From NCBI GenBank assembly GCA_009692115.1, contig SHZU01000002.1, positions 124,001-188,000 of the forward strand: a stretch of DNA of 64,000 bases, in the 5' to 3' direction. Shown piece by piece: positions 53,852 through 59,439 of this stretch. Every line of letters starts with the position of its first letter. The first letter of the stretch is position 1. This DNA is from Gemmatimonadota bacterium (GTDB lineage: Bacteria; Gemmatimonadota; Gemmatimonadetes; Gemmatimonadales; GWC2-71-9). The position numbers were made by a program, and so were the translations under genes. The notes below the pieces were generated by a model, which worked only from the letters and a program-made list of their open reading frames with translations, was not told the DNA's origin and searched no databases.

Positions 53852-55581
53852 TCGGCTGGGTCCGGGTCGTCGGGTGCCTCTCGGTCCTCGTGGGAACCGC
53901 GGCCGGGGCTCAGGACCGCCCTCCGGATCCGGCGACCCGCGCGTTCGACTTGGAGCGGCGCGGACAACACGGGGCCGCCGCCGAGATCTACCGAACCATG
54001 CTGGCTGCTCGCCCCGCCGACCTCGGGGCCCTGCTGGGTTTGGAACGGTCGTTGACCCCGCAGAACAAAGTGGCCGATATGGTCCCTTCGGTTCGGCGGG
54101 CCCTTGGCAGCGGCGATCCGTCCGGCGCGCTGTTCGGGATTGCCGTTCGGGTGTACGCCGTGGCGGGTTTGGCTGACAGCGTCCGGCCCATTGTCGATCG
54201 GTGGGTGGCGGCGGAGCCCGGGTCCGAGTCGCCGTATCAGGAATGGGGGTCGGCCGCCCTCGGCGCCCGCGACCGGATTCAGGCCAAGGCCGCCTATCTC
54301 CTGGGCCGGGAACGCCTTGGCCGTGACGCGCTGGCCGCGGAACTCGCCCAGTTGGCCACGATTGAGTCCGACTACGAGACAGCGGTTCGGGAGTGGCTGG
54401 TGGCGGTTCTGAAGACGCCGCCGTATCGGTCCGCCGCGGTCTCTCTCCTGGCGCAGGCTGCCGTGGCCGGCCGACCGACGGTGCTTCGGCAGCTCGATCA
54501 GGCCAAGAGCGGCCAGGCAGAACGGATTGCGGCGACGCTGACGATTCGGTGGGGCGACCCAGTGGGCGGGATCCGGCGGATTGAACGCGCCATGCTGGTG
54601 CTGGCGGAGCAGTCGGTTGAGGCTTTGCAGGACGGGCTCGATGAAATCCGGGGGCAAGCCGGCCGGGAGTTCGGGATGGCAAAAGGGATTGCGCTCGAAC
54701 TGTTAGGCACCAAGGTGCCGGGGCAAGCCACTCGGTACTGGCTCGAATCGGCCCAGGCCTATGCGGACGCCGGCGATCAGGGGTCGGCCCGGCGGATGCT
54801 GTCGCGGCTGGCGGCCGATCCGAAAGCGTCACCAACGATGGCCGCGTCGGCGACGTCGACGCTGGTGACGGTGCTGGTAGCTGAAGGGAAGATGGAGGAA
54901 GCTACCAAGCAGTTCGGCCAGCTCAAGGCCGTGCTGGCCGAGGAGGAGCGGGCGGGCCTTCAAGTTCGGTTGGCGGAGGGGTGGATCGGGGCCGGGAAGC
55001 TCGATCGGGCCGAGCACGCGGTGGCCCAGGACAGTACGGTTGAAGGTCTGGCGGTGCGCGGGCGAATCCGGCTCTACCTCGGGGATCTCGGCGAAGCCTC
55101 GAGTCTGATGCGAATGGCCGGGCCGTTTGCCGGGGCCCGGGACGCGTCGGTCTCCCGAACGACGGCGTTGTCGCTGATCCAGGTGATCGACGAGGACAGT
55201 CTGCCGACGTTAGGCGGAGCGCTGCTCAAGCTCGAGCGGCGCGACAGCGTGGGCGCGGCGGGCGACCTCGAACTGGTGGCGGCCACGCTGCCGCCGGATC
55301 GGGGCGGGGCCGAGGTGTTCTTGCTGGCCGGCCGGGTCCATGGCGGCCTGGGCAGCCGGCCTGACGCCGAGCGGCTCTTCCAGCAGGTTTGTGGGCTCAA
55401 GATTCCGGCCAGTGCGGCGGCCGCGGGTTACGAGTTGGCCCGGATTCTGGTGGCCACCGACCGGAAGGCCCAGGCGATCGAACGGCTCGAGGAACTGTTG
55501 GTGGCCTATCCGACCAGTGCCGTGGCGCCCCAGGCCCGCCGACTCCTTGATATGGCGAAGGGAGCGATTCCCCCGGGATGA
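53848..55581 (+). CDS. Exported TPR-rich protein
   Basis: A 577-residue protein. GTG start overlapping the DUF4175 stop (GTGA); signal peptide VRVVGCLSVLVGTAAGAQ. The rest is a chain of tetratricopeptide-like helical pairs: ATRAFDLERRGQHGAAAEIY, AYLLGRERLGRDALAAELAQ, YADAGDQGSARRMLSRLAAD, RVHGGLGSRPDAERLFQQVC and AQAIERLEELLVAYPTSAVA. It lacks enzymatic motifs and likely mediates protein contacts in the periplasm with the DUF4159, DUF4175 and Tat proteins of the operon. Confidence 0.85.
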   Translation: MIGWVRVVGCLSVLVGTAAGAQDRPPDPATRAFDLERRGQHGAAAEIYRTMLAARPADLGALLGLERSLTPQNKVADMVPSVRRALGSGDPSGALFGIAVRVYAVAGLADSVRPIVDRWVAAEPGSESPYQEWGSAALGARDRIQAKAAYLLGRERLGRDALAAELAQLATIESDYETAVREWLVAVLKTPPYRSAAVSLLAQAAVAGRPTVLRQLDQAKSGQAERIAATLTIRWGDPVGGIRRIERAMLVLAEQSVEALQDGLDEIRGQAGREFGMAKGIALELLGTKVPGQATRYWLESAQAYADAGDQGSARRMLSRLAADPKASPTMAASATSTLVTVLVAEGKMEEATKQFGQLKAVLAEEERAGLQVRLAEGWIGAGKLDRAEHAVAQDSTVEGLAVRGRIRLYLGDLGEASSLMRMAGPFAGARDASVSRTTALSLIQVIDEDSLPTLGGALLKLERRDSVGAAGDLELVAATLPPDRGGAEVFLLAGRVHGGLGSRPDAERLFQQVCGLKIPASAAAAGYELARILVATDRKAQAIERLEELLVAYPTSAVAPQARRLLDMAKGAIPPG

Positions 55582-56870
55582 TGCCCCGACGGCGTTTCCT
55601 CGAACTTGGCGCCGCCTCGCTGGCGGCCGCCACCCGGTGGCCCGAGGCCGGCACCCCGCGCCGACTGGCCGACCATTTTCTGGTCCCGATGGACGAGACC
55701 CAGTCCGACCATCTCAAAGCGTACGGCCTGACCTACCGGCTGCTGGCGCGGGGCGGGAAAGCGGAGTGGTTCCTCAACTATCGGGCGGGGTCGTTCCTGC
55801 TTCCCGGCGACAGTGCGACGGCCCGGGATGCCGCGCTGGCCGGCGTGACCATCGAGCCGGTCGATAGCGGGACGGTGTTTCAGATCAAGGCCGAGATCGC
55901 GCAGGCCAACATGGACGCCGTGCCGCTCGAGAAGGCGCCGAAGGTCGCGGTGTACGCGCCGCCGGGCGCCGCGCCGTGGGATGACGCCGTGACGATGTCG
56001 CTTCAGTATGCCGGGATCGAGTTTGAGAAAATTTGGGATGAAGAGGTGGTTGGCGACAAGCTCTGGACCTTCGATTGGCTCCACCTCCACCATGAAGACT
56101 TCACGGGGCAGTATTCGAAGTTCTTCTTGAACTACAATGGCGCCCCCTGGCTCCAGGACATGGTCGAGCGGAACGAGCGGATGGCGCGGAAACTCGGCTT
56201 CAAGGATGTGCCGGCCGACAAGCGGGCCGTGGCGTTTGCGATCCACCAGTTCGTCGACCGAGGCGGGTTCTTGTTCGCGATGTGTACGGCCACCGAAACC
56301 CTCGATTTGGCGCTCGCGAGCGACGGGGTCGACATTGCCGCGAGCTTTGCCGACGGCTCGCCGATGGACGGAAATGCGACGAGCAAGATGGATTGGGATC
56401 GAGCGCTGGCGTTCCAGGGAGCCCGGCTCGAGCAGAGTCCGTCGATGGCGTTGTACTCGGATATCGACGGTCATCAAGTGAACTCGCCGGACCGGCGGCA
56501 ACCGCTCGGCTCCTTCACCCTCTTCAACTTCAGCGCCAAGATCGATCCGGTGGCGACCATGCTGGTCCAGAACCATCGACAGGTGATCCCGGATTTCTAC
56601 GGACTGACGACATCGTTCATGAAGAACCGGCTCAAGCCGGGGATCACGGTACTGGCGGATGAACCTGGGGCGCCGTGGGCCAAGTATATCCGGGGCGAGC
56701 GGGGGCAGGGGACCTGGGCGTTCTTCGGGGGGCACGATCCGGAAGACCCCCAGCACCAGATTGGTGACGCACCGACCGATTTGTCGTTGCATCCCCACTC
56801 GCCGGGATACCGGTTGCTGCTCAATAACGTGCTGTTCCCCGCCGCGAAGAAGAAAGAGCTCAAGACCTGA
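55578..56870 (+). CDS. Tat-exported protein of the family often labelled asparagine synthetase B
   Basis: A 430-residue protein. The N-terminus MMPRRRFLELGAASLAAATR is a twin-arginine signal. The body begins DHFLVPMDETQSDHLKAYGL then WFLNYRAGSFLLPGD, a pattern I associate with proteins labelled asparagine synthetase B in Bacteroidota and Gemmatimonadota. That label looks wrong: there is no N-terminal nucleophile Cys, no PP-loop and no synthetase domain. Other stretches, such as KVAVYAPPGAAPWDDAVTMS and FDWLHLHHEDFTGQYSKFFL with clustered His and Asp, suggest an amidotransferase-like or metal-binding fold. Overlaps the TPR gene by ATGA. Confidence 0.75.
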   Translation: MMPRRRFLELGAASLAAATRWPEAGTPRRLADHFLVPMDETQSDHLKAYGLTYRLLARGGKAEWFLNYRAGSFLLPGDSATARDAALAGVTIEPVDSGTVFQIKAEIAQANMDAVPLEKAPKVAVYAPPGAAPWDDAVTMSLQYAGIEFEKIWDEEVVGDKLWTFDWLHLHHEDFTGQYSKFFLNYNGAPWLQDMVERNERMARKLGFKDVPADKRAVAFAIHQFVDRGGFLFAMCTATETLDLALASDGVDIAASFADGSPMDGNATSKMDWDRALAFQGARLEQSPSMALYSDIDGHQVNSPDRRQPLGSFTLFNFSAKIDPVATMLVQNHRQVIPDFYGLTTSFMKNRLKPGITVLADEPGAPWAKYIRGERGQGTWAFFGGHDPEDPQHQIGDAPTDLSLHPHSPGYRLLLNNVLFPAAKKKELKT

Positions 56871-56925: not shown

Positions 56926-59439
56926 ATGTCCGCTCCTCCCCACCGGATCCTCCCTGTCGCGCAGGACGTGATTGCCCAAGAAATCGCCGCGGCGGGAGGC
57001 CGGGAGGTGTGCTTCGTGGCGGTGGTCTCGGCCGCCGGCGTGGTGACCGAGGCCCGCGCGGTGGCCCGGGGTACTCCAGACATGGTCTTAGCGCTGCCGG
57101 GTACCGCCCGTCGCGGAGAGATGGTGCTTCACAACCACCCGACGGGGCATCTCGAACCCTCGCATGCCGACCTGAGCGTCGCGGCCCGATTCCACGACGC
57201 CGGGGTGGGCTTCGGGATCGTCAACAACGAGGCGTCGGCGTTATATGTGGTGGTGGAGGTTCCCCGAGCTCGGGTGGAGCAACGGCTCGACCCGTTCGAG
57301 GTGGTGGCCGTGTTGAGCGAGGGCGGTTCGGTCGCGAAGCTGATGGGCCAGTACGAAGACCGGCAGAGCCAGCGAGACATGGCGGCGTACATCGCGGACG
57401 GCTACAACGACGGCGGCACTCTGGTGCTGGAGGCGGGTACCGGGGTTGGGAAGTCGTTCGCCTACCTGGTTCCGGCGCTGGCGTGGGCCCGGGCCAACGA
57501 CGAACGGACCGTGATCTCGACGAATACCATCAACTTGCAGGAGCAGTTGGTCGGCAAGGATCTCCCGCTCCTCCGCCAGGCGTTAGGCGACGAGGTCCGG
57601 CAGCCGACGTTTGCGTTGCTCAAGGGGTGGCGGAACTACCTCTGCTTGGCCCGCCTCGAGGTTGCCACGGCGGGCCAGCAGTCGCTCCTCGAGGAAGGCC
57701 GGATCGGCGAACTCATTACGATTGCGGAGTGGGCCGGCCGAACCGGCGACGGAACGGTGGGTGATTTGGCCACCCCGCCGAGTGTCGAGGTGTGGGACGA
57801 GGTGGCGGCAGAGTCCGATCTCTGCCCGCGGCTCAAGTGCCCGCACTTCGATCGGTGCTTCCTGTTCCGGGCTCGCCGGAAGGCCGCGGAGGCCGATGTG
57901 GTGGTCGTCAACCACCACTTGCTCGCGGCCGATCTCGCGGTGCGGGCGGCGTCCGACAATTGGGACGATGCCGCCGTGCTTCCCCCGTACCAGCGATTGA
58001 TTTTGGATGAGGCCCATCACCTCGAAGACGTCGCCGCCTCGCACTTGGGCCGGCAGCTGTCGAGTACCGGCGTTCGACGGCTGCTCGGAAGGCTGGAACG
58101 GAACGGCCGCGGGTTGGTGCCGACCCTGGTCCGGGAGTTGATGCGGGACGGCGATGTCCTCTCGCGCGCCAGCCTCGAGCTGGTCCGGGACAAGCTGGCA
58201 CCCGCCATCAATGATGCCCGGCGGTTCTCCGAGGCCATGTTCGAGCGGCTCTATGGCCGGTTGATCACTGAGGGTGGCGGTTCGATTCGGCTCCAGGACG
58301 AGTTTGCCGCCGATCCGATCTGGGGTGAGGGACTGGGACGGGAGGTCGACGCCTTGCTCGGCTCGTTCCGGCGGGTAGCCGACGAAGTGGCCACCGTGGC
58401 CGACCGGCTGAGCCAGGGCGAAATGACCGATCGACGGAACCAACTGATGCTCGAACTCAAGGCTGTCATTCGGCGGCTCGAATCGGGCACCGACGCCTTG
58501 AACCAAACGCTCCGTCCCGTCGGGGGCGGTCCTCCGGTCGTTCGGTGGATCGAACGAAGTGGTCACAAAGGCCTTGGCGTGTCGCTGGCCGCCGTGCCGT
58601 TGGACCTGGCGCCGGTGCTCCGCGCCCTGGTGTTCGATCGCAACAAAACCGTGGTCTTGACCAGCGCAACGTTAGCCGCCGGTGGTGAGTTCGAGTTTCT
58701 GGAGGCCCGGCTCGGGCTCGATCAGGCACCCAGTCCGGTGACGGTCCGGGAGATGCTCCCGTCTCCGTTCGACTACCCATCGCAGTGTCTGTTCGGGATT
58801 CCGAATGACATGCCCGATCCCCGTGAAAACGAAGCCGCCCACGATCAGGCGGTGGCGCAGGTCATTGCCGATTTGGCCGCCGCGTCCGACGGCGGAATGT
58901 TTGCGTTGTTCACGAGCCACGGGGCGCTCCGCCGAGCGGCGGTCCGGCTTCGGAGCGGGCTCGACCCCCGGTGGCCGCTCCTGGTCCAGGGCGAGGGAGG
59001 CCGCGACCAGCTCCTCCGGCGGTTCCGGGAGTCGGGCAACGGAATCCTCCTCGGCACCGATTCGTTCTGGGAAGGCGTCGATGTCCCGGGTCGGGCGCTC
59101 CGGACGCTGGTGCTTGGAAAACTGCCGTTCAAGGTGCCCTCGGAACCCCTGACCGCGGCCCGGCTCGAGCGGCTGGCGGAGCAAGGGGTCGATGGGTTCG
59201 CGCAGTATCTGCTCCCGCACGCGGCCCTGAAACTGAAGCAGGGGTTCGGGCGGTTGATCCGCTCCAAGACCGATGTCGGGGTCGTGGTGCTGCTCGATAG
59301 CCGGGTGTTGACCCGGCGCTACGGTCCCTGGCTCCTGAGCGGCCTCCCGAGAGCGTCAAGAATCGAGGGACCCTGGTCGGCGGTCCGGACCGCCGCGGAG
59401 GACTTTTTTGCCCGGCACGGGATCGGCGCATCGACCTGA
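56926..59439 (+). CDS. JAMM/RadC-like domain fused to DinG-family (XPD-type) helicase
   Basis: An 837-residue protein. Residues about 10-115 form a JAMM-type domain: E27, then HNHPTGHLEPSHAD with H69, H71, S79 and D82, exactly HxHx10D and close to RadC. The helicase follows: Walker A EAGTGVGKS (K176), four cysteines C240, C300, C305 and C311 (YLCLAR, DLCPRLKCPHFDRCF) for an XPD-type iron-sulfur cluster, DEAH at 361-364, VVLTSATLAAGGEFEFL, GTDSFWEGVDVPG and QGFGRLIRSKTDVGVVVLLD. DinG unwinds 5'-3' and resolves R-loops and damaged forks. TATCTT lies five bases before the ATG; no Shine-Dalgarno. Confidence 0.92.
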   Translation: MSAPPHRILPVAQDVIAQEIAAAGGREVCFVAVVSAAGVVTEARAVARGTPDMVLALPGTARRGEMVLHNHPTGHLEPSHADLSVAARFHDAGVGFGIVNNEASALYVVVEVPRARVEQRLDPFEVVAVLSEGGSVAKLMGQYEDRQSQRDMAAYIADGYNDGGTLVLEAGTGVGKSFAYLVPALAWARANDERTVISTNTINLQEQLVGKDLPLLRQALGDEVRQPTFALLKGWRNYLCLARLEVATAGQQSLLEEGRIGELITIAEWAGRTGDGTVGDLATPPSVEVWDEVAAESDLCPRLKCPHFDRCFLFRARRKAAEADVVVVNHHLLAADLAVRAASDNWDDAAVLPPYQRLILDEAHHLEDVAASHLGRQLSSTGVRRLLGRLERNGRGLVPTLVRELMRDGDVLSRASLELVRDKLAPAINDARRFSEAMFERLYGRLITEGGGSIRLQDEFAADPIWGEGLGREVDALLGSFRRVADEVATVADRLSQGEMTDRRNQLMLELKAVIRRLESGTDALNQTLRPVGGGPPVVRWIERSGHKGLGVSLAAVPLDLAPVLRALVFDRNKTVVLTSATLAAGGEFEFLEARLGLDQAPSPVTVREMLPSPFDYPSQCLFGIPNDMPDPRENEAAHDQAVAQVIADLAAASDGGMFALFTSHGALRRAAVRLRSGLDPRWPLLVQGEGGRDQLLRRFRESGNGILLGTDSFWEGVDVPGRALRTLVLGKLPFKVPSEPLTAARLERLAEQGVDGFAQYLLPHAALKLKQGFGRLIRSKTDVGVVVLLDSRVLTRRYGPWLLSGLPRASRIEGPWSAVRTAAEDFFARHGIGAST

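Follow-up and report, generated by a model that had tools for sequence, protein, structure and literature searches.

YoaA of Escherichia coli, an XPD/Rad3 helicase, partners with HolC (chi); the YoaA-chi complex moves in the 5'-3' direction and unwinds DNA that is damaged at a 3' end (PMC9826845). The eukaryotic FANCJ, which belongs to the same helicase family, runs into DNA-protein crosslinks and unfolds them for SPRTN to cut (PMC12279946). Some DinG subgroups carry N-terminal nucleases (PMC11981726), and in the Staphylococcus aureus ExoDinG (SaDinG) the motor and the N-terminal nuclease are both required for crosslinker resistance (PMC12345164).

RadC-type domains have been described at the same place. 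Zhang et al. 2012 (PMC3482391) mentioned the prediction that RadC is a nuclease, and Iyer et al. 2017 (PMC5512222) cited the DinG/Rad3 fusion as its basis. In these papers Aravind and colleagues argued that RadC domains lack the groove for the ubiquitin tail and are placed where other DinG proteins carry nucleases. Cheng 2025 (PMC11981726) named the architecture 'RadC-like DinG', described the same E-H-H-D site and a JAMM-like fold, noted that the carriers are without HolC and stated that 'no research' had been conducted on it. The RadC-DinG fusion architecture is thus already known. An earlier note on the DNA studied here had pointed out the fusion and seen a strong functional hint in it; both had been published (PMC3482391, PMC5512222, PMC11981726). 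New relative to Cheng 2025 are a wider, counted distribution, a fifth conserved residue (S79) and quantified conservation, and also a Ser-Cys-Cys-Cys sister clade, JAMM domains that were repeatedly lost or inactivated, and the features that set the fused domain apart from RadC proper.

Results

The window, a stretch of 64,000 nucleotides from a Gemmatimonadota genome, encodes the fusion on its + strand in one open reading frame (ATG at 56926, stop at 59439) of 837 aa. The full-length model had a mean pLDDT of 90.3 and a pTM of 0.87, with one uncertain loop (residues 51-60). Numbered from this ATG, the coordinates, ligand positions and domain calls of the earlier note were all correct. The features are as follows.

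56926..59439, + strand: RadC-like DinG (JAMM-helicase fusion), 837 aa; open reading frame and translation, Pfam and NCBIfam matches, full-length model
56947..57279, + strand: N-terminal JAMM/RadC-like domain, residues about 8-118; PF04002 match and AlphaFold2 model
57004..57006, + strand: E27, JAMM general-base glutamate; invariant in 156/156 relatives with an intact domain
57130..57138, + strand: H69-N70-H71, zinc-ligand histidines (HNHP); invariant in 156/156
57160..57171, + strand: S79-x-x-D82, JAMM serine and third zinc ligand; invariant in 156/156
57280..57354, + strand: linker, residues about 119-143, two predicted helices, G134 conserved
57355..59436, + strand: XPD/YoaA-type SF2 helicase, residues 144-837; NF053712 YoaA match, conserved motor residues
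57643..57645, + strand: C240, first Fe-S cysteine; alignment of relatives
57823..57858, + strand: C300, C305 and C311, other Fe-S cysteines; alignment, C305 and C311 invariant in A2

With the RadC-like DinG of Cheng 2025 the window protein shares the RadC-like N-terminal domain with E/H/H/D, the YoaA-like Fe-S helicase, a putative C-terminal MD2 helix and the absence of HolC, and no defining difference was found. E. coli YoaA resembles it in the Fe-S cluster and motor motifs and represents the nearest curated family, but is 636 aa long, has no JAMM domain and pairs with HolC, which is absent from the window genome. ExoDinG and EndoDinG have a DinG-like helicase preceded at the corresponding position by a hydrolase domain; their N-terminal domains, however, are nucleases with folds unrelated to JAMM.

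Matches to the helicase half began at about residue 143. The best curated match was NCBIfam YoaA (NF053712; E 1.4e-170) with 569.1 bits, below the curated cut-off of 680 bits. DinG models matched at 1e-123 to 1e-135, and E. coli-type DinG (NF008729) reached 411 of the 598 bits of its curated score. The Fe-S cysteines C240, C300, C305 and C311 were present, as were Walker A K176, DEAH D361/E362 and R776, which are conserved in relatives. A predicted helix at residues 817-830 may represent the C-terminal MD2 helix of YoaA, which it matches by position only. Curated scores and the tree described below place the helicase nearest YoaA and not E. coli DinG. The earlier note was right about an intact Fe-S helicase with four cluster cysteines; because YoaA is the nearest family, the R-loop role that it transferred from E. 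coli DinG is unjustified. By score the protein is not a type IV CRISPR DinG (Csf4), as TIGR03117 reached 106.5 against a curated 400 bits; hits of the PADLOC typeIV_DinG models reflect general similarity among such helicases and represent a cross-hit. The fusion was the only PF13307 helicase found in the window genome. HolC (PF04364) was absent from this genome, while control genomes gave matches.

In an entire Gemmatimonadota sister clade (families f4-f6; L169, L175-L177, L179, L181-L199 and others), serine replaces the first Fe-S cysteine, and helicase and JAMM site are otherwise intact. We rejected the idea that Fe-S cluster and JAMM site decay together, as the serine occurs in 38 JAMM-intact sequences and is a clade-wide trait.

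The N-terminal domain (residues 1-142) was modelled by AlphaFold2 from 40 diverse relatives (mean pLDDT 90.7, pTM 0.79). The top Foldseek match was Chlorobium RadC (2qlc; E 3.9e-5), followed by CSN5, archaeal and eukaryotic Rpn11, bacterial BubCD and BRCC36. Structural re-alignment with Rpn11 gave Z 10.3 and an rmsd of 2.6 Å over 105 residues; Z was 10.2 with BubCD and 9.0 with Pyrococcus furiosus JAMM1 (PfJAMM1). The listed neighbours were JAMM/MPN proteins, mostly (iso)peptidases. The model is confident and predicts a JAMM/MPN fold; an alignment to some non-JAMM fold, which the earlier note had named as a refutation, did not emerge.

E27, H69, H71, S79 and D82 match the JAMM signature E..HxH-x7-S-x2-D, and Pfam RadC (PF04002) matched residues 26-98 (E 4.6e-7; 30.2 bits, cut-off 22.1 bits). 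We aligned 174 proteins, comprising 156 with intact E-H-H-S-D, three with a destroyed site and 15 others, namely four contig-end or frameshift fragments (L027, L114, L115, L132) and eleven domain-less rows from ten genomes. All five catalytic residues were identical in 156 of the 159 aligned relatives that retain the JAMM domain. Only nine of 111 JAMM-domain positions were invariant among the 156, and these included all five catalytic residues (hypergeometric P about 1e-6). Otherwise the domain and the helicase have diverged at the same pace, with mean pairwise identities of 48% and 47%, respectively. Since the five residues are invariant in 156/156 intact relatives and make up five of the nine invariant positions, the site is not a product of chance. 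The complete zinc site claimed by the earlier note is present, joined by S79, and its ligands are conserved among the fusions; a lack of such conservation, which the note had named as a refutation, was not observed. The alignment suggests that the fused domain is very probably catalytic; catalysis is favoured over structural zinc because the catalytic glutamate and serine are kept along with the metal ligands.

Following Aravind and colleagues, the JAMM domain could be a nuclease or nucleic-acid phosphodiesterase that trims damaged strands unwound by the helicase, since it occupies the position of the DEDD exonuclease in ExoDinG and of the endonuclease in EndoDinG. Position and RadC context were argued in this sense (PMC5512222, PMC3482391), other DinG subgroups have N-terminal nucleases (PMC11981726), the SaDinG exonuclease is needed for crosslinker resistance (PMC12345164), and a Cas4/PD-(D/E)XK-like motif can be read in the N-terminal region of the additional DinG found in Geobacter-type genomes (L224-L227). 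The reported lack of the ubiquitin-tail groove in RadC domains (PMC5512222, PMC3482391) would also fit a nucleic-acid substrate. However, no nuclease was among the JAMM/MPN structural neighbours listed for our model, in agreement with the DALI search of Cheng 2025 (PMC11981726), the JAMM domain is acidic (mean pI 5.3), and the literature searched gave no example of a JAMM with nuclease activity. We regard a nuclease as a serious but doubtful candidate.

The fused domain shares with RadC/YicR (PF04002, TIGR00608) the HNHPSG..PS..D zinc site, the upstream glutamate and the JAMM core, and profile-profile comparison with the RadC core (hhalign) gave a probability of 97% (E 3e-11). In contrast, it scored 21.7 against 180 bits and 16.7 against 133.85 bits with the curated RadC models (TIGR00608 / NF000642). 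All of 17 RadCs share the HPRE and D-H motifs, but both are absent from the fused family, which has an 8-residue gap at the HPRE helix. The N-terminal region of RadC (about 100 residues) is also missing, the JAMM domain starting within about 8 residues of the N-terminus. By these sequence comparisons the fused domain is RadC-like but forms a separate subfamily, neither RadC proper nor interchangeable with it. The RadC affinity seen in the earlier note holds insofar as RadC is the nearest Pfam family; the motifs, N-terminal region and score of RadC are lacking.

A separate RadC of 232 aa is encoded in the window genome. No standalone RadC was seen in g66 and parts of g64, g56 and g114, where the sequences keep a putatively active (E-H-H-S-D) fused JAMM domain; conversely, lineages in which the fused domain is deleted still keep standalone RadC. 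The two were thus lost independently, and this presence and absence across genera does not support the fused domain as a redundant copy or partner of RadC. Because of the separate RadC and the independent losses, the fusion tells little about RadC's own role; the inference from fusion to RadC function, as offered in the earlier note, is weak. In six Desulfuromonadales loci (L035, L039, L042, L070, L072, L080), a standalone radC follows the fusion gene on the same strand at a distance of about 0.6-2 kb, which is a local link.

We searched 200 genomes sampled evenly across Gemmatimonadota with the N-terminal 220 residues and obtained matches in 165, among which about ten matched through the helicase only (no JAMM domain) and three had dead sites. 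An apparently intact fusion therefore occurs in roughly three quarters of the sampled genomes. No PF13307 helicase was found in the Gemmatimonadota genomes G042, G046, G120, G125 (family f7), G097 and G051. Outside the phylum, the best matches came from Desulfuromonadales/Geobacter, KSB1 and Dadabacteria. Matches in single MAGs assigned to Acidimicrobiia and to Caldithrix may reflect binning errors. The JAMM-helicase fusion is real and common. That it arose by chance, through faulty gene calling or as a recent fusion of no note is refuted by the same open fusion in several phyla, in most of the 200 Gemmatimonadota genomes and in one deep clade; we found no point in favour of any of these explanations, and give them practically no weight.

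Geobacter-type genomes and one MAG labelled Acidimicrobiia have a second DinG beside the fusion (L224-L227), which by reading only appears EndoDinG-like, as its N-terminal region shows EIK or EVK in a Cas4/PD-(D/E)XK-like motif. A phage origin of the fusion was rejected, as 0/39 viral loci with RadC-like domains carried a DinG-like helicase. On viral contigs these domains lay in small ORFs or within ORFs of 2,300-2,750 aa (L236, L237, L248, L253, L254, L257, L258, L264, L265, L269), the latter being consistent with polyvalent proteins.

We built a quick maximum-likelihood tree from 98 helicase parts, and all fused proteins fell into one deep clade beside E. coli YoaA; E. coli DinG and the EndoDinG-like proteins lay elsewhere. 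This indicates a single origin of the fusion, the few unfused outgroups being DinG and YoaA of E. coli and four EndoDinG-like proteins, all on long branches. JAMM-less Gemmatimonadota helicases nested within the fused clade as a clade of eight (g28, g30, g33), L127 and L133. In such lineages the C-terminal part of the linker is retained. Three aligned proteins keep the domain with a destroyed site (L124 KHRLE, L125 RLQSE, L126 SIHSE), as does L270 from the same genus as L125 and L126 (g70). L133 sits beside L125/L126, and L124 was placed separately. The least number of JAMM state changes on the tree was six, outgroup included, and the motor residues remained in every case of removal or inactivation. 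These observations indicate that the domain was gained once in the sampled tree and then removed or inactivated several times with the helicase intact.

The dead copies, three genomes of g70 (L125, L126, L270) and one of g73 (L124), are confined to genomes of 1.8-2.0 Mb, and no standalone RadC was seen there; inactivation was thus seen only in genomes without RadC, although two genera of small genomes are too few to draw on. From their sequences, these copies are possible pseudoenzymes, and one genus keeping an apparently folded dead domain suggests that catalysis is not always required. The same copies would suit a non-catalytic interaction or zinc-structural module, for example a stand-in for HolC tethering the helicase to the replisome, and HolC is absent from the window genome, as Cheng noted for carriers (PMC11981726). 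However, a role without catalysis hardly accounts for E27 and S79 being as invariant as the ligands in 156 proteins, and the dead copies are found in small genomes alone; we consider such a module improbable.

Among the gene neighbours of the fusion no repair partner recurred across groups, and only local synteny within Gemmatimonadota was seen. Conserved neighbours were therefore dropped as a functional clue. Directly upstream of the fusion gene, at 55578-56870 of the window, lies a Tat-signal-like protein, and a related ORF is found upstream on the same strand in about 25/30 Gemmatimonadota loci (synteny only).

The closest solved folds are ubiquitin/Ubl isopeptidases, one of them bacterial, so the JAMM domain could remove a ubiquitin-like modifier from fork proteins in the manner of BRCC36, Rpn11 or BubCD. 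The ubiquitin-tail groove is, however, reported absent from RadC-type domains (PMC5512222), and, in 81 loci, we noticed neither modifier nor E1/E2 genes among the neighbours that recur. A search for Prok-E2_B gave no match in 10 genomes with fusion-type helicases, nor in the control. We judge deconjugation very unlikely.

Discussion

The window protein is a member of the RadC-like DinG family. Our findings suggest that it probably combines a YoaA-type 5'-3' Fe-S repair helicase with a catalytically competent N-terminal JAMM domain and acts at blocked or crosslinked forks. At forks that are stalled or crosslinked, the helicase would load on single-stranded DNA, translocate 5'-3' and strip or unfold the blocking obstacle, and the JAMM domain would hydrolyse the exposed obstacle in cis. 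The loss of the domain with retention of the helicase fits an accessory processing module.

As to the substrate of the JAMM domain, we lean, tentatively, to a protein; a nucleic acid is a possibility of similar standing, and regulatory or other roles make up the smaller remainder. A peptide bond in a DNA-protein crosslink or tight roadblock would be the favoured target. We lean this way because the structural neighbours are JAMM/MPN proteins and mostly (iso)peptidases, because the JAMM enzymes characterised to date are, to our knowledge, (iso)peptidases, and because the domain is acidic, which counts mildly against direct nucleic-acid binding. In the literature searched, we came across no activity for a RadC-type JAMM.

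By functional analogy only, FANCJ plus SPRTN also pairs an XPD-family motor with a metalloprotease at DNA-protein crosslinks; these are two separate proteins, and SPRTN is a SprT-type protease, not JAMM. The fusion might be a single-chain bacterial counterpart in which the motor unfolds crosslinked proteins and the JAMM metalloprotease of the same chain cuts them, a speculative reading that we consider unlikely. A SprT-like protein is also encoded in the window genome, which may therefore have such a protease already. If the single-chain reading were true, the fusion would be a dedicated bacterial crosslink protease and the first JAMM to act on DNA-bound protein without a ubiquitin-like tag; we know of no earlier JAMM enzyme that does so.

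Nothing in our analysis singles out R-loops, and RadC's function is not revealed by the fusion. The results rather warn against transferring an answer from one to the other, as RadC's conserved motifs are missing and the two genes come and go independently. The RadC-like DinG family is widespread, occurring in Gemmatimonadota, Desulfuromonadales, KSB1 and Dadabacteria. Gemmatimonadota offer natural controls, namely close relatives in which the same helicase bears an active JAMM domain, bears a dead one or has lost it, and the contribution of the zinc domain to the motor is therefore directly testable.
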